Assembly: GCF_036880985.1 (NCBI RefSeq)
Contig: NZ_JBAJNO010000008.1
Coordinates: 2,171,500 to 2,235,499 of the forward strand
DNA from: Limibacter armeniacum
GTDB taxonomy: Bacteria > Bacteroidota > Bacteroidia > Cytophagales > Flammeovirgaceae
Direction of reading: 5' to 3'
Length of the DNA: 64,000 nucleotides
Shown: positions 28,687 to 35,231 of the stretch, one piece after another
Numbering within the stretch: the stretch's first letter is position 1
Layout of the letters: each line of letters opens with the position of its first letter
The notes under the pieces: generated by a model
What the model saw: only the letters and a program-made list of their open reading frames with translations
Database searches by the model: none
What the model was told of the DNA's origin: nothing
Program-made: the position numbers and the translations under genes

Positions 28687-29202
28687 ATGAGAAAACTTTT
28701 ATTCTTTCTTACAGCCTTGATGGTGGCTAGTTTCATGACTTCTTGTGATAAAGCAGAAGACGTATTTGAGCAATTCAATATGACAAATGAGGCGACTGTA
28801 GATGGTGGGCAGGTAACGTTCAGTAACTTGACAAGTTCTTATACAATCGCTCAAGGTTATGTGGTTATTACCTTGAACTCATCTGTAGACTTAGCTGCTC
28901 AGGAAATTAAATATCCAATCCTTACAATTACCTATCCTGAAAGCCTGCATAAAAGCGGTCAGACAATTAGTCTACCAAAACTTAATGGAAGCGAAAGTGC
29001 TTCAGCATTATTTACAACTGGTAAAGAGCTGAAAGATAGCTATACAGTAGGAGTGGATGCAGAAGGATCTACAGGTAAACTAGTCCTGAAGACAGTGGAT
29101 GAAACTACGTTGTCTGCTACATTTGAAATGACAGCTTATAACTCAAGTCTGGAAAAAGTGGAGATTACAGACGGTAAAATCGGTTTGAAGCGAGTTTACT
29201 AA
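28687..29202 (+). CDS. uncharacterised small lipoprotein
   Basis: The 171-residue protein has a lipoprotein signal (hydrophobic core, then MTSC with lipidated Cys near residue 20). The rest is beta-rich, with Ser/Thr-rich strands ending in a basic residue cluster. I do not recognise the family. It starts 66 bases after the NadR-like gene on the same strand and may share its transcript. A strong bidirectional terminator follows. Confidence 0.6.
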   Translation: MRKLLFFLTALMVASFMTSCDKAEDVFEQFNMTNEATVDGGQVTFSNLTSSYTIAQGYVVITLNSSVDLAAQEIKYPILTITYPESLHKSGQTISLPKLNGSESASALFTTGKELKDSYTVGVDAEGSTGKLVLKTVDETTLSATFEMTAYNSSLEKVEITDGKIGLKRVY

Positions 29203-29278: not shown

Positions 29279-29731
29279 TTACTTCAGCCACTCATATAGT
29301 TCATAGTGCTCTTTCGTCATGCCAATCGCTTCATAAACCTGTTGAGCATTCAGGTTTGTTTTTTCGACGTATAACCTGATGCCTCTGAATTCGTCGCTTT
29401 TTTCAACCATTTCCTTCAGGTAAGTATACATAGATTTGAATACTCCTTTTTTGCGGTAAGATTCCTTTACATATAAGGAGTGTATCCAAAGTACATTGCC
29501 ATTTCGCCAGTCACTCCATTCGTATACTGTGAGCAAACAAGCGATGACCTCATTGTCAGCTTCAGCTACCCAATAGTTGCCGATTTGTGGGTGATCAAAT
29601 ACGTGTTTAACTCCTTTGTTGACGGTTTCAGTATCAAGCTTCAGGTTTTCAGTTTCCCATGCCATATCTATCTGAAATTGCGCAATTGTTTGCAGTTCGC
29701 TTGCTTCAGGCTTCCTGATCGTGTAGTTCAT
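29279..29731 (-). CDS. GNAT family N-acetyltransferase
   Basis: I start this gene at the ATG at 29731 (MNYTIRKPEAS), giving a 150-residue protein. The longer open frame runs through the coding region of the upstream gene and is not plausible. The GNAT core is visible as beta strands 'NYWVAEADNEVIACLLT' and 'VLWIHSLYVKESYRKKGVFKSMY', the acetyl-CoA-binding R-x-x-G-V-F variant of the Q/RxxGxG/A motif. 'IRLYVEKTNLNAQQVYEAIGM' is motif B. It overlaps the 3' end of the YihY gene by 26 bases, so the two are translationally linked. The acceptor is unknown. Confidence 0.85.
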   Translation of the reverse strand: MNYTIRKPEASELQTIAQFQIDMAWETENLKLDTETVNKGVKHVFDHPQIGNYWVAEADNEVIACLLTVYEWSDWRNGNVLWIHSLYVKESYRKKGVFKSMYTYLKEMVEKSDEFRGIRLYVEKTNLNAQQVYEAIGMTKEHYELYEWLK

Positions 29732-30749
29732 GTTTTTTTTTGAATGGTATTTTAATTTTGAATCTATTTCCTGTGGCAGGCTTAACTCCTTTACCGATTT
29801 TAGTAGCATAGACATAGATAAACTCTGCACCGAAATAGAGAATCTGTGCAGAATAAAAGACCCATGCCAGTATGATGATGATTGAATTGGCAGCCCCATA
29901 TACATTGGAGAAGTTTGTCCGGCTGATATGCCAGCTAATGGCTAGTTGTCCTAACAAAAACAAGAATGCAGTAATGGCAGCGCCAATGGTAACGTCTTTC
30001 CAGCGAATGATTGCATTCGGTAGGTATTTGAAAATGGCGGCAAATAGGAACGTCACCATAATAAATGGAAGAATCAGGTTTAGCGCAGAATAGAATGCCG
30101 AAATATTGATGGCAAAATATTCCTCAATAATGTTGCTAAGAGCAAGAAACAGGGTTTCCAGTATCAGTACAAAGACCACTACAATACCCAAACATATCAC
30201 CATTATAAAGGAAATCAGTCTGTCTAGTGCCAATTGAACCAAGCCTGATTTTTTGTCATCATCCACTTTCCAGAACTCATTGATAGAGGTTTGTAATGTG
30301 TAGAATGCGACAGTTGAACTGAATGCCAGTGTTGCAATCCCTACAATGGTTTTGATGGTTGATCGGTTATCGGGGTTTGCCAGATTGTTGATAAAGAATT
30401 CGAGCTGTTTGGCTATATCACTTCCCGCAACCATTGTCACTTCCCGAATGATTTCTTCCTTGATCATATCTTCCCCAACAAAAGACCCTACAACGGAGAT
30501 AATAATGTAAAGCATCGGAGGAAGAGAGAAGACAGTATAGTAAGCCAATGCAGCTCCTTGGATATAGGCTTTATCGTCGTTGAACGCCTTGAAGGTATCT
30601 TTCAGCAAAGAAAAAACAAGCGTCATAAAACGGACAAAGCGATACAGCCAATCCAGTAACAGGTTATTGGGTTTTGAGTTGATTTCCTTATGGAAATTGA
30701 GTCTCAGTAGCCTTATATGTGCTTTTATTTTATTTAATTTTCCGAACAT
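29706..30749 (-). CDS. YihY/virulence factor BrkB family inner-membrane protein
   Basis: The 347-residue protein has about six transmembrane segments and the YihY signature. A cytoplasmic N-terminus leads into 'DKAYIQGAALAYYTVFSLPPMLYIIISVVGSFVG'. A 'STVAFYTLQTSINEFWKVDD' loop and a 'NVYGAANSIIIILAWVFYSAQILYFGAEF' segment follow. The C-terminus is basic. Family members were once mis-called ribonuclease BN and their role is unsettled. The downstream acetyltransferase overlaps its end. Confidence 0.88.
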   Translation of the reverse strand: MFGKLNKIKAHIRLLRLNFHKEINSKPNNLLLDWLYRFVRFMTLVFSLLKDTFKAFNDDKAYIQGAALAYYTVFSLPPMLYIIISVVGSFVGEDMIKEEIIREVTMVAGSDIAKQLEFFINNLANPDNRSTIKTIVGIATLAFSSTVAFYTLQTSINEFWKVDDDKKSGLVQLALDRLISFIMVICLGIVVVFVLILETLFLALSNIIEEYFAINISAFYSALNLILPFIMVTFLFAAIFKYLPNAIIRWKDVTIGAAITAFLFLLGQLAISWHISRTNFSNVYGAANSIIIILAWVFYSAQILYFGAEFIYVYATKIGKGVKPATGNRFKIKIPFKKKHELHDQEA

Positions 30750-31018
30750 GTGATATAAAGAAGAAAGCCTATTAAAGCATCTCTAAACAGGTCAATGTAT
30801 TAGAGTAACAACTTTTGACTTATTTCTAGGCATTAAATTGAAAAAATGAAACCCATTTCTGCCATACGTCCTCCTTTTGTTGTCATAAGAATATGAAATT
30901 GCCTGATTCTATAATCTTTTACTTATGTAACTTTTTAAGGCAATTCTGGTTCAGAATGGGAAAAATCAATCCCAATTTTTGGATTTATTTTTTGATTCTC
31001 AAAATCAATATAAAAATC

Positions 31019-33928
31019 ATGTTTAAAAATACCATTATTCTGATATCCCTCCTGCTATTCACCACGTCAGTTGCATTGGCTCAGTCAACACCTGAACTGG
31101 TATTGGAGCCGTATGGACATTCTGAAATCGTCAGGGATATTTCATTTACAGCAGACCGTGAAAAAGTGGTGAGTGTCAGCGAAGATAAGACTATCAGGAT
31201 ATGGGATGTCAAAAGTGGAGAACTCCAAAAAACGTGGTGGGGATATGCAGAAGAGGGGAAGGATGGTAGACTGAATGCCATGTCATTCTCAGCTGGAGAT
31301 AAAATCTTGGCAGTAGGAGGTTACTTAAAAGGCAACGCTGTCAGGTTGATAGATTTTGCAAAAGGAAAGCAGGTTGCAACACTGAAAGGGCATACAAACG
31401 TGGTAACTTCTTTAGCATTTTCTCCTGACACAAAGTACTTGGCTACAGCTAGTGCAGACCAGACTATCAATATTTGGTATTTGCCAGTTTTACAGGAAGG
31501 GAAGTTTGAGGGAGATGAAAAGCCCAAGCTTGTCAAAACTTTAAAAGGTCATTCAGCAGAGGTGTATAGCCTTGCATTTTCTCCAAATGGAAAATACTTG
31601 CTTTCAGGAGGTATGGATGGCTCTGTAAAACTTTGGGAAATACAAAAGCTAGAAGAAGGTAAAAGCTTTGATCTTGAAGTGCCCAAACAACAAAAAATCA
31701 CCTCAGTTGGGTTTTCGCCTGATGGACAGTGGATGGTAGCCGCTGCTTTGGGTGGGAAAATCATGGTTTGGAATACGGCAGGAAAACTGGATGCTTTCCT
31801 GACAGATTTAAAGGCGAGTGTGTTTGACCTGACGTTTTCTCCTGATAGTAAAAAGCTGGTGTCGCTGGATGCTACAGGGCGTATTACGGTATTCGAAGCA
31901 CCTGTATGGAGACTAGCCAAATCTTGGGTTGCTCACGAGGGGATTGGGGTAGCCTTAGCTTTTGCTCCTGAAAATAATCGTGTATTAGCATCTGCGGGAG
32001 GAAAGGAAAATAGAATTCATTTGTGGGATATTGAACGGGGACGAAAACTGAGGACTTTTGAAGGTGAAGGAAAAGTTTTGAGAACAGTTGCAGCAGGGGA
32101 AAACATGAATGTTGGATTGGGAACAAAGCTGTCGGTAGTTAAAACGAAACATGCGGTGGAAATGGCTTTTGATTTCCTAAACCTCCAGATGGATTTACAA
32201 GAGCAGGATATATATGCTTTCACTGCCGAGGTTCACCGTAAAGGTCAGAATGTGTTGTTTTTGGAAGATCCATTGACATTGAAAACAAAATATGGACAAA
32301 TAAAGGTAAGTGCAGATCAGGATAAAGCCATTGCTGCTTATACATGGCTTGAGAATGGTAATGTAGCCGTTGGTACTGGTTCTTCTTTGAAAATATACAC
32401 ACCTTCAGGAGAGGAAGTGATGGAGCTAAAAGGTCATTCAGGGAAAGTTTGGCGGACAGTGCCATTCAAGGAAAAGTACCTTTTGTCAGCAGGAGCAGAC
32501 CAGACTTGCAGACTTTGGAATGTTGAAACAGGGGAATTATTGGCAACATTATTTGTGACAAAGGGTGGTGAATGGGTTTGCTGGTCCCCACTTGGGTATT
32601 ATGAGGCATCGGCTGGTGGAGAACAATATATCGGGTGGCTAATAAATAAGGGAGAAGATGAGATGAGTGAGTTTTACCCTCTCAAGACTTATAGAGAAAG
32701 GTATCATCAGCCAGAAGTTCTGAAAGCAATTATAAAAAATGGAGAGGCGGATGCAACAGTTCAAAACTTGGGGTTGAATATAAAAGAACATGTCTCAACA
32801 CCCGCTGAGATAGATTGGATAACACCAAGCAAGACAAACCTTAGAGTGAAGGGAAATAAAGTGAAGGTGACTTTTGAAGTGGTATCTGAAGAACCTATCA
32901 ATGAGGTAAAGCTATTGATCAATGGAAGGGAAGTAAACGTTGAGAAACAGGAAGAGCCGACAGAACGAAATGGAAAAGCAGGCAAGAAGCTATCCTTTCA
33001 AGTGCCTTTGACTGAAAGCAGAAGTGACTTGCAGGTATTGGTACGCTCTAGTGGAGGAATGATTCTATCCGAAAAACGATTGATTGAGTTGGATAGGAAT
33101 GAATCTGAATCAGGTGGAAATAATACCTCACTGGAGTTGGATGTAAATATGCCTGACTTGGCAGGAAAGCCTTTGGTGAAACCAGACATCTATCTTTTGA
33201 GTATTGGGGTTTCCAAATACGCGCAGTCACAGTACAATTTGCAACTGGCGAGTGTAGATGCACAAGCCATCACCGATATGTACACAGCCCAGTCAGAAAA
33301 TGGTGTATTTAGTAAAGTGAATGTAAGGCAACTGACTGATGAGTTGGCAACCAAAGATGAAATACTGAAGGGAATTGGCTGGCTTGCTGAAAATGTGGAA
33401 CAGAAAGATCTGGTGGTCATATTTATTGCCTCTCATGGAATAAATATAGGCAGTGATTTTTATGTATTACCCCACGATGCTGATATGAGAAACCCTACCA
33501 AAACAGCCTTAAAGTGGCAGGATTTTGCTCATACAATTTCAAAATTACCGGCAAGGGTGCTGATGTTGGTAGATGCCTGTAATAGTGGAATGCTAGGAGT
33601 AAATCAGTTAAGTGACTTATACCATGATCCTACAGAGTTTTTGAGAGGGATGTCATCTGAGGAAACAGGAGTGGTGATTATGTCTGCTTCGACAGGAAAA
33701 GAAAGTTCTTATGAACACCAAGATTGGGGGCATGGAGCCTTTACGTTTGCCTTGTTGGAAGGTATCAGGGATGGAAAAGCAGATGTGTCAAACGATCAAT
33801 TGGTTTCATTGAGGGAATTAGATTTGTACGTAGCAGAAAAAGTGAGTGAATTGACTGAAGGCAAACAGCATCCAACCACCCAAAAGCCAAGTACAATCAG
33901 CAGCTTAATGTTGGGGAAAGTAAATTGA
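31019..33928 (+). CDS. secreted WD40-repeat protein with C-terminal caspase-like protease domain
   Basis: The ATG at 31019 starts a clean signal peptide (ending SVALAQ). An upstream in-frame ATG at 30893 would bury it. The 969-residue protein has WD40 repeats from ~30 to ~420 and one more near 495-530 (blades ending in IRIWD, INIWY, VKLWE, IMVWN, IHLWD, CRLWN). A beta-sandwich-like linker lies at ~620-720. A C14 caspase/metacaspase-type domain lies at ~735-969, with the dyad His806 (FIASHG) and Cys854 (VDACNSG). Such domains cleave after basic or acidic residues, but the target is unknown. It is monocistronic, with a terminator at 33955. The MORN/Kazal gene lies just downstream. Confidence 0.87.
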   Translation: MFKNTIILISLLLFTTSVALAQSTPELVLEPYGHSEIVRDISFTADREKVVSVSEDKTIRIWDVKSGELQKTWWGYAEEGKDGRLNAMSFSAGDKILAVGGYLKGNAVRLIDFAKGKQVATLKGHTNVVTSLAFSPDTKYLATASADQTINIWYLPVLQEGKFEGDEKPKLVKTLKGHSAEVYSLAFSPNGKYLLSGGMDGSVKLWEIQKLEEGKSFDLEVPKQQKITSVGFSPDGQWMVAAALGGKIMVWNTAGKLDAFLTDLKASVFDLTFSPDSKKLVSLDATGRITVFEAPVWRLAKSWVAHEGIGVALAFAPENNRVLASAGGKENRIHLWDIERGRKLRTFEGEGKVLRTVAAGENMNVGLGTKLSVVKTKHAVEMAFDFLNLQMDLQEQDIYAFTAEVHRKGQNVLFLEDPLTLKTKYGQIKVSADQDKAIAAYTWLENGNVAVGTGSSLKIYTPSGEEVMELKGHSGKVWRTVPFKEKYLLSAGADQTCRLWNVETGELLATLFVTKGGEWVCWSPLGYYEASAGGEQYIGWLINKGEDEMSEFYPLKTYRERYHQPEVLKAIIKNGEADATVQNLGLNIKEHVSTPAEIDWITPSKTNLRVKGNKVKVTFEVVSEEPINEVKLLINGREVNVEKQEEPTERNGKAGKKLSFQVPLTESRSDLQVLVRSSGGMILSEKRLIELDRNESESGGNNTSLELDVNMPDLAGKPLVKPDIYLLSIGVSKYAQSQYNLQLASVDAQAITDMYTAQSENGVFSKVNVRQLTDELATKDEILKGIGWLAENVEQKDLVVIFIASHGINIGSDFYVLPHDADMRNPTKTALKWQDFAHTISKLPARVLMLVDACNSGMLGVNQLSDLYHDPTEFLRGMSSEETGVVIMSASTGKESSYEHQDWGHGAFTFALLEGIRDGKADVSNDQLVSLRELDLYVAEKVSELTEGKQHPTTQKPSTISSLMLGKVN

Positions 33929-33954: not shown

Positions 33955-33979
33955 AGGTGGACAGTTGTCCACCTTTTTT
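33955..33979 (+). terminator. intrinsic terminator
   Basis: AGGTGGACA and TGTCCACCT form a tight hairpin followed by a T-run, 27 bases after the caspase gene. Confidence 0.88.
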
Positions 33980-34166
33980 ATTGTGAAAGATTTTAGCCAA
34001 GAAGATTTTTTAACAGTGGATTTCAATTTTTTAAGAAGGAAAAGTGCAACTGTTATCCTTCATAATGGCTTAATTGAAGATTGGATGTTACCTTTATTCA
34101 AATTAAGCTAAAAAAAATCATAGACCTCCACTGCAAGGTGGAGTGTGCAAACATATCTACTTTTTT

Positions 34167-35231
34167 ATGAAAAAAATTTATTTGCTTTTCGCATTAGCTT
34201 GCTTCACACTAGCATCAGCTTCAGCACAGGATACAGCTGTTCAGGAAGAGCGTTATGAAGGCAACTTTAACGGTCAGGGGCAGAAGGATGGTTCAGGAAC
34301 CTATTATTGGGCTGATGGCACAATCTATCAAGGCAGGTGGAACAATGACAAGATGCAAGGCAGAGGTAAGATTACTTATCCTGACGGAAGTTCGTATGAA
34401 GGGAACTTTTTGGATGGTATCAGAAGTGGCTTTGGCATCTTTACTTGGGCAAATGGAGATGAATACCAAGGAGGTTTCAAGGATGGCAAGATGCATGGTC
34501 GAGGCATTTTAACCCAAAAGGATGGTACCCAACATGAAGGCTCTTGGCTTTATGGTAAAAGCTTTGGAGAGGGGACACATACTTACCCTGATGGTTCCCA
34601 ATATATTGGTGAATGGGTGGATAACAAACGTCATGGAAAAGGGATCATGTTGTATTCCGATGGCAGGGTAGAGCAAGGTGAATGGGAAAAAGGAGAGTAT
34701 GTGCCATGTAAGTGTACAAAGGAAACGGTTTCTGTCGAAGAGGCTTTTTCTATGTCACAAGCAGTGTTTGTAGGGGAAGTGTTTTCCATTGTGACAAATG
34801 ATGAAGAGGGATATGACCAGATTGGCATTGTCGTAACTGAATATTGGAAAGGAGAGCTTTACCCAGGAAGAAAAGTATATATGTATGCCCAGTATAGCTC
34901 TTGTGATTTTGTTTACTTCTTGGGAGAAAAATACCTGATATATGCGAATAAGCATCCATATCAGCGTACAATGTATTATCCTGATAAATGTACCCGAACA
35001 AGAAAGCTTGTAACTGCTTCAGATATGGCAGAGGTAAACCAACTGAGAGCAATGGTACCTTGTGACTTGCCTGATATAGAGAAAAGATCAGTTGCCTATG
35101 ATTTTTCAGAAGATGAAGTATGTGGTTGTGATGGGGAAACCTATAAAAATCCATATCAGGCAAACAAGGCAGGGATAGCTCATTGGAAAGCAGGAGCCTG
35201 TGAAAATGATCAGGAGAAAAAAGAAGACTAA
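34167..35231 (+). CDS. secreted MORN-repeat protein with NTR-like and Kazal-like domains
   Basis: I take the ATG at 34167, which begins a signal peptide (ending SASAQ); a GTG at 34143 would extend it. The 354-residue protein has about seven MORN repeats at residues ~28-180 (units such as YEGNFNGQGQKDGSGTYYW and YQGRWNNDKMQGRGKITYP). A ~105-residue segment follows, starting with CKC and containing 'FVGEVFSIV' and 'CDFVYFLGEKYLIYA', a pattern like tissue-inhibitor/netrin (NTR) domains. The last ~30 residues start VCGCDGETYKN and end KAGAC, like a Kazal inhibitor, but one expected Cys (NxC) is replaced by Tyr. MORN repeats often bind lipids or act as scaffolds; the combination is unusual. A small CTCCAC/GTGGAG hairpin (34126-34143) lies in the leader. 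Confidence 0.75.
   Translation: MKKIYLLFALACFTLASASAQDTAVQEERYEGNFNGQGQKDGSGTYYWADGTIYQGRWNNDKMQGRGKITYPDGSSYEGNFLDGIRSGFGIFTWANGDEYQGGFKDGKMHGRGILTQKDGTQHEGSWLYGKSFGEGTHTYPDGSQYIGEWVDNKRHGKGIMLYSDGRVEQGEWEKGEYVPCKCTKETVSVEEAFSMSQAVFVGEVFSIVTNDEEGYDQIGIVVTEYWKGELYPGRKVYMYAQYSSCDFVYFLGEKYLIYANKHPYQRTMYYPDKCTRTRKLVTASDMAEVNQLRAMVPCDLPDIEKRSVAYDFSEDEVCGCDGETYKNPYQANKAGIAHWKAGACENDQEKKED

Follow-up and report, generated by a model that had tools for sequence, protein, structure and literature searches.

Gene layout and domain architecture

The window analyzed here is a stretch of 64,000 nucleotides from Limibacter armeniacum, a member of the Flammeovirgaceae (NCBI RefSeq assembly GCF_036880985.1, contig NZ_JBAJNO010000008.1, positions 2,171,500 to 2,235,499 of the forward strand). 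It contains a gene for a caspase-like protein of peptidase family C14 that carries WD40 repeats and a predicted export signal, referred to below as the window protein. The features of this gene are as follows.

31019..33928, + strand: gene for an exported WD40-Ig-caspase (orthocaspase) of 969 amino acids, as predicted from an open reading frame, Pfam WD40 and Peptidase_C14 matches and family alignments
31019..31084, + strand: predicted signal peptide, residues 1-22, with predicted cleavage near ALAQ (crude rule with controls; similar N-terminal pattern in relatives)
31094..32653, + strand: WD40 region, residues ~26-545, about 12-14 blades, probably two propellers (Pfam, AlphaFold2, Foldseek)
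32807..33091, + strand: predicted Ig-like beta-sandwich, residues 597-691 (AlphaFold2 strands, Foldseek Ig matches)
33182..33925, + strand: predicted caspase-fold (C14) domain, residues ~722-969 (Pfam; structure matches to MALT1, AtMC4 and GSU0716)
33434..33436, + strand: codon of the catalytic His806 (family alignments)
33578..33580, + strand: codon of the catalytic Cys854 (family alignments)

Residues are counted from the start at 31019. An alternative in-frame ATG lies upstream at 30893, but the signal-peptide-like stretch of the relatives matches the 31019 start instead (the start codons of the relatives in this comparison are the analyst's choice). The domain order is signal peptide, WD40 propellers, Ig-like domain and caspase domain, where the protein ends; a linker of low model confidence (residues 694-718) joins the Ig-like sandwich to the caspase domain. 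The WD40 match scores 193.6 bits in Pfam (cut-off 27) and the Peptidase_C14 match 62.7 bits (cut-off 21.4), which places the protein in the C14/orthocaspase family. The WD40 region ends in a family motif, W519-x-x-W522-x-P-x-G-x-Y-x-A-S-A-G-G-E, whose lettered positions are invariant alignment columns. The signal peptide, WD40 blades, C14 domain and His806/Cys854 dyad named in a preliminary description of this DNA are all borne out by Pfam, the alignments and the signal-peptide rule; that description lacked the predicted Ig-like domain, a terminator-like hairpin downstream of the gene and the nine additional C14 matches that the genome contains.

Predicted fold

A full-length AlphaFold2 model, built from 27 aligned sequences, has a mean predicted local distance difference test score (pLDDT) of 83.2 and a predicted template modeling score of 0.75. 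It contains 48 strands between residues 26 and 554, and the blade count given above derives from the strand list rather than from coordinates. The best Foldseek match of this model is 2ymu, a repetitive propeller. Because phmmer comparison of the caspase part alone with PDB sequences returned chance-level matches only (phosphoethanolamine transferases with E values of 0.24 and above) and did not recover MALT1 at E<=1, fold comparison was needed for this domain. For a separate model of the last 385 residues (pLDDT 81.6), the best Foldseek match is the MALT1 paracaspase (E 1.9e-11). In a second structure comparison, the top matches are Arabidopsis metacaspase 4 (AtMC4; Z 22.2, root-mean-square deviation 3.1, 219 residues aligned) and GSU0716 (Z 22.2, deviation 2.6, 208 aligned), with which MALT1 is tied (Z 22.0). 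The matches of this second comparison cover the caspase part and barely reach the Ig-like part; single Ig domains, listed with no aligned range, stand further down among the Foldseek matches of the C-terminal model (E ~6e-5). We are confident that the C-terminal domain, as modeled, has a caspase fold; a shared fold by itself is no proof of protease activity.

Several known proteins share parts of this design. MALT1, which belongs to the Arg-directed class (PMC4357240), combines a caspase fold and an Ig-like domain in one protein, and the window protein, with its clear caspase fold and predicted Ig-like domain, may do the same. In contrast to MALT1, the window protein is bacterial, apparently exported and equipped with WD40 propellers, and its predicted Ig-like domain precedes the caspase domain, with nothing after it. 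GSU0716 of Geobacter (PDB 3bij) is likewise a bacterial caspase fold, whose solved chains of 262-265 residues correspond approximately to the caspase part alone. Prokaryotic WD40-fused C14 orthocaspases have the same p20-type domain, His/Cys dyad and conserved S1 aspartates, and N-terminal export signals have been reported for prokaryotic C14 proteins (PMC3501461, PMC6426788); the window protein differs from the known WD40-C14 orthocaspases in its order of signal peptide, propellers, Ig-like domain and caspase. PMC6426788 defines orthocaspases as lacking a separate p10 domain that can be recognized in the sequence. No NACHT or other NTPase module is present among the Pfam matches listed for the window protein (25 of 60). 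Over the caspase domain there is significant similarity (E 1e-18) to the EACC1-associated caspase family, NCBIfam NF047832.

Active site and predicted specificity

The dyad His806/Cys854 is present in the window protein and strongly conserved. Of 16 aligned family rows, one of them the window protein, all 16 retain His and 14 Cys, and an alignment of 27 rows, with named relatives and the window protein, retains them in 27 and 26, respectively. The two alignments overlap; among the 33 distinct full-length rows of the tree set, window protein included, 31 keep the dyad. Asp747 is kept in 26 and Asp852 in all 27 rows of the larger alignment. By motif, rather than by superposition, these two fit Asp95 and Asp211 of TbMCA2, the acidic S1 residues that accept a basic P1 residue (PMC6426788, PMC4357240), and Arg or Lys is therefore predicted at P1. 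Cleavage after Asp appears unlikely from the same residues. The catalytic residue of TbMCA2 we take to be Cys213, which puts its Asp220 seven residues further on, and at the matching position the window protein, as read from its sequence, has Val. Since Asp220 is part of the metacaspase calcium site (PMC4357240), this site is seemingly not conserved in the window protein.

Export and cellular location

The N-terminus of the window protein, MFKNTIILISLLLFTTSVALAQ, satisfies a home-made signal-peptide rule that is passed by 155 of 2000 shuffled sequences (7.8%) and by none of five cytosolic-type proteins of the window. The rule is also passed by 21 of 27 full-length family members. At least three of the six failures (L097, L098, L106, L112, L116 and L124) have no Lys or Arg before a clear hydrophobic run. 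Some rows of alignment A1 start inside the signal peptide as a result of the chosen coordinates.

The preliminary description considered an exported caspase-like protein unusual, and this view did not survive the genome-wide comparison. The genome contains ten Peptidase_C14 matches, all above the cut-off, and the window gene and eight of the nine others satisfy the crude signal-peptide or lipobox rule, so that nine of ten are export-type. In a published survey WD40 is the commonest domain fused to C14 proteins (73 of 671), and N-terminal helices of C14 proteins are described as likely signal peptides (PMC3501461). WD40-C14 fusions and, separately, probable signal peptides on C14 proteins have been in print since 2012; no statement that combines the two occurs in the available part of PMC3501461. 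The tenth C14 match of the genome (L087, G000:C8:679585-680220), whose N-terminus lay outside the test, has its WD40 and C14 parts in different frames, owing either to a disrupted gene or to a fault in the assembly.

At E<=0.1 the window protein matches one NCBIfam family, a caspase model, and it therefore has no known type IX sorting tail there; none is found among the listed Pfam matches either. The periplasm would be the simplest location for the protein.

Family distribution and related loci

The family extends over several bacterial phyla, and full-length relatives, 31-43% identical, are present in Flammeovirgaceae, Cyclobacteriaceae, Reichenbachiella, Microscilla, Spirosoma, Verrucomicrobia, a Desulfobulbaceae bin and bacterium UASB270. 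A search of 58 genomes, that of L. armeniacum among them, gave matches at E<=1e-30 in 18; 16 of these fall in the same family group (again with its own genome), and two are among the 40 genomes outside it. In the tree the window protein stands beside Flammeovirga (support 100/99) on a long branch. An alignment-based scan of genome contigs found 34 family loci, and a single-protein scan none. Eight of the 34 are partial or one-part matches excluded from the full-length counts (L109, L119, L120, L122, L123, L125, L126 and L127; a single gene may be split between L109 and L119). The neighborhood analysis used 40 distinct C14 loci, namely 49 loci minus nine repeats of the same gene, the eight partial ones included.

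By neighbor clustering and directed search, a small protein without a Pfam family, an LPP20/DUF4384-type protein, or both, are present in nine of the 40 loci, in three gene orders. In Cyclobacteriaceae the order is WD40-caspase, small protein, LPP20/DUF4384-type protein (L099, L100, L102 and L117; L106 has the small protein only), and in Reichenbachiella it is small protein, LPP20/DUF4384-type protein, WD40-caspase (L103 and L108; not L115). In both groups the genes share a strand and are separated by 1-88 bases. In Flammeovirga pacifica (L111, L130) and G014 of the same genus (L069, L131), the small protein (divergent), the LPP20/DUF4384-type protein and an OmpA/PD40 protein are followed by an unknown protein of 771-773 residues, a TPR-caspase and the WD40-caspase. 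DUF4384 exceeds its Pfam cut-off only in L103 (32.2 vs 27 bits); it is below the cut-off in L069, L108 and L111, and at the thresholds applied L099, L100 and L117 show no DUF4384 match, although LPP20 is matched weakly in L099 (E 0.007). Outside L103 the grouping as LPP20/DUF4384-type follows from weaker domain matches and from blastp and tblastn between the proteins, and the export of both neighbors was judged by eye from their N-termini. The combination of C14 and DUF4384 within one protein has already been noted (PMC6426788), and two C14 frames of the L. armeniacum genome carry a weak DUF4384 match, below the cut-off. A literature search, whose coverage did not extend to most subscription journals, returned no title on partner genes of the WD40-Ig-caspase family. 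Viewed as an operon, the Flammeovirga cluster (L111/L130, L069/L131, L187 and L188) consists of the LPP20/DUF4384-type protein, the OmpA/PD40 protein, the unknown protein, of ~771-777 residues, and the TPR-caspase, and a WD40-caspase at its end is optional.

Flammeovirga also contains copies that lack the catalytic Cys. In F. pacifica (L105, which equals L070) and G014 (L071), Gln replaces this residue in open, full-length frames. These copies, 31-32% identical to the window protein, stand at the YihY locus of Flammeovirga (the old site), and an intact-dyad copy (38-40%) ends the caspase operon on another contig. In the related genomes G010 and G002 the caspase operon, with its TPR-caspase and OmpA/PD40 genes, has no WD40-caspase at its end. 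In the tree the two Cys-less copies join each other (100/100) and then a G016 copy at the old site (100/99), while the operon copies group with other Flammeovirga copies (97/96). Given the operons of G010 and G002 and this grouping, the operon seems to have acquired a WD40-caspase, and the Cys of the old copy was probably lost a single time, with the full length retained. Pseudo-variants amount to only 10 of 1078 Bacteroidetes sequences in PMC6426788.

Downstream MORN gene

The preliminary description raised the idea of a regulated pair between the caspase and a protein with a Kazal-like (protease-inhibitor) motif encoded by the next gene. Two features bear on it.

33955..33974, + strand: terminator-like hairpin of 8 pairs followed by a T run, 26 bases past the stop codon (hairpin scan, fold test)
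34143..35231, + strand: gene for a predicted exported MORN protein whose Kazal-like motif is incomplete (Pfam, phmmer, alignment, locus searches)

The MORN frame begins 214 bases downstream of the caspase gene and has six MORN matches (117.6 bits in Pfam). The Kazal-like stretch, V-C-G-C-D-G-x-T-Y-x-N, is indeed present and is conserved across the MORN family, but the likeness goes no further than resemblance: Pfam finds no Kazal family at E<=1, phmmer aligns the protein with a Kazal inhibitor at E 0.054, and there are 4 cysteines, between residues 307 and 353, where a classical Kazal domain has six. These results do not place the protein among the Kazal inhibitors. Ahead of this stretch, the C-terminal part of the MORN protein has conserved cysteines at C189, C191, C254 and C283, a pattern that may resemble TIMP/netrin-like domains.

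That the two proteins form a protease-inhibitor pair is the least probable explanation we considered, and we have discarded it. In this genome the genes adjoin on the same strand and both products have export-type N-termini. Against this, tblastn with the MORN protein, its parts and its Kazal part matched none of the 40 distinct C14 loci (likewise none of all 49), where the positive control matched the window and 14 of 14 MORN loci, and a search for relatives of the window C14 protein, as opposed to any C14 protein, was negative at all 14 MORN loci. The C14 loci extend at most ~8 kb per side and some lie on short contigs, and for this reason absence of a neighbor from the 40 loci is weak evidence; the MORN loci, taken with wide flanks, represent 14 of 18 orthologues outside the L. 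armeniacum genome (G007, G009, G011 and G039 were left out). Full-length MORN orthologues occur in 16 of the 18 family genomes, L. armeniacum included, but wherever both genes are present outside L. armeniacum (13 genomes) the two are on different contigs or at least ~110 kb apart, and no MORN match is found in G006, the source of the closest C14 relative (43%). The neighborhood is therefore not conserved. The hairpin also suggests that the caspase and MORN genes are separate units, although this evidence is modest (one hairpin found vs 0.5 expected in shuffles; z -1.9, with 13 of 200 shuffles folding equally well). No promoter was detected between them by a scan whose model does not cover Bacteroidota promoters. 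Moreover, the proteases inhibited by Kazal domains are serine proteases.

Proposed function and alternatives

We favor, with moderate confidence, the reading of the window protein as a Sec-exported orthocaspase, likely Arg/Lys-directed, whose propellers and Ig-like domain dock substrates or partners. It would act as a C14 cysteine protease, either periplasmic or at the outer membrane, and would most likely cleave after Arg or Lys; substrates or partners may be held by the WD40 propellers and the Ig-like domain and presented to the caspase domain. The likelier functional partners would be the small protein and the LPP20/DUF4384-type protein, which gene order ties to the caspase elsewhere. Thus, of the exported protease with a sensing propeller put forward in the preliminary description, the export-type N-terminus, the intact dyad and propellers able to sense or dock are retained, while its rarity and its inhibitor are not.

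Some results weigh against this reading. The caspase domain scores 67.6 bits with NF047832, below the cut-off of 140 for that family. Directed search found neither recurring neighbor in 31 of the 40 loci or in the window; in the L. armeniacum genome a homologue of the small protein (49%) lies unlinked at G000:C9:233798, and no separate LPP20/DUF4384-type homologue is found at E<=1e-4, a search with the Cyclobacteriaceae protein, made without a positive control, giving no match. Co-occurrence across genomes is further confounded by kinship, because 16 of the 18 matching genomes belong to one family group.

Other explanations assign the protein a different role. It might be mainly a non-proteolytic envelope scaffold that binds through its propellers and caspase fold, the dyad being incidental. 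A caspase fold can evidently persist without catalysis, since the Cys-to-Gln copies of F. pacifica and G014 remain open and full-length after long divergence; however, with His and Cys kept in 31 of 33 members, and an intact copy elsewhere in both genomes that have a Cys-less one, we regard a scaffold as rather unlikely. We attach a similarly low probability to a digestive protease, secreted or surface-located, or to a weapon directed at other cells, in place of a periplasmic processing enzyme. Flammeovirgaceae secrete many hydrolases, the window protein appears to be exported, and surface or fratricidal roles have been proposed for exported C14 proteins (PMC3501461), but the searches described above found no type IX sorting-tail model and some neighbors in relatives, such as OmpA/PD40, look like envelope proteins.

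It is very unlikely, in our judgment, that the start was mis-called and that the protein is a cytoplasmic effector of cell death or phage defense. WD40-bearing C14 proteins do occur in such systems, and the "caspase" model of PADLOC gives a weak match (26.9 bits). Export-type N-termini across the family speak against it, as do the flanking genes, which encode YihY-family, GNAT, MORN and rhodanese proteins. A defense system at this locus was also rejected, as PADLOC returned only the weak caspase match and a match of the WD40 region to HEAT-ARM_XIII (79 bits).

Returning to the exported orthocaspase, it is a well-formed member of an already known kind of protein, and the possible surprise lies in the recurring partner set, which is a genomic correlation only. 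We tentatively propose that the exported WD40-Ig-caspase, the LPP20/DUF4384-type protein and the small protein may form an envelope protease module whose gene orders differ among Cyclobacteriaceae, Reichenbachiella and Flammeovirga. The window copy would be an unlinked form of this module, and two Flammeovirga genomes would have gained a copy in the operon and kept a pseudoprotease at the old site. This remains doubtful enough to be treated as a possibility. Most discussion of bacterial caspase homologues treats them as enzymes of death or defense; if the proposal is true, a conserved exported branch with intact sites and partners would point to cell-envelope proteolysis, a different job, and the recurring exported-looking neighbors would provide concrete partner candidates.

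Other genes of the window

Upstream of the caspase gene lies a divergent neighbor.

29706..30749, - strand: gene for a YihY/BrkB-family membrane protein (Pfam/NCBIfam; conserved positional neighbor in Flammeovirga)

The caspase gene, which diverges from this one, probably forms a transcription unit by itself. The YihY/BrkB-family gene, together with a GNAT gene, a gene for a large exported-looking protein and two others, is kept in nine Flammeovirga loci, a conservation that is positional kinship within one lineage. Further upstream, the product of the frame at 28687-29202 has a hydrophobic N-terminus and matches the Riean_0653 family below its cut-off (39.7 of 57 bits).

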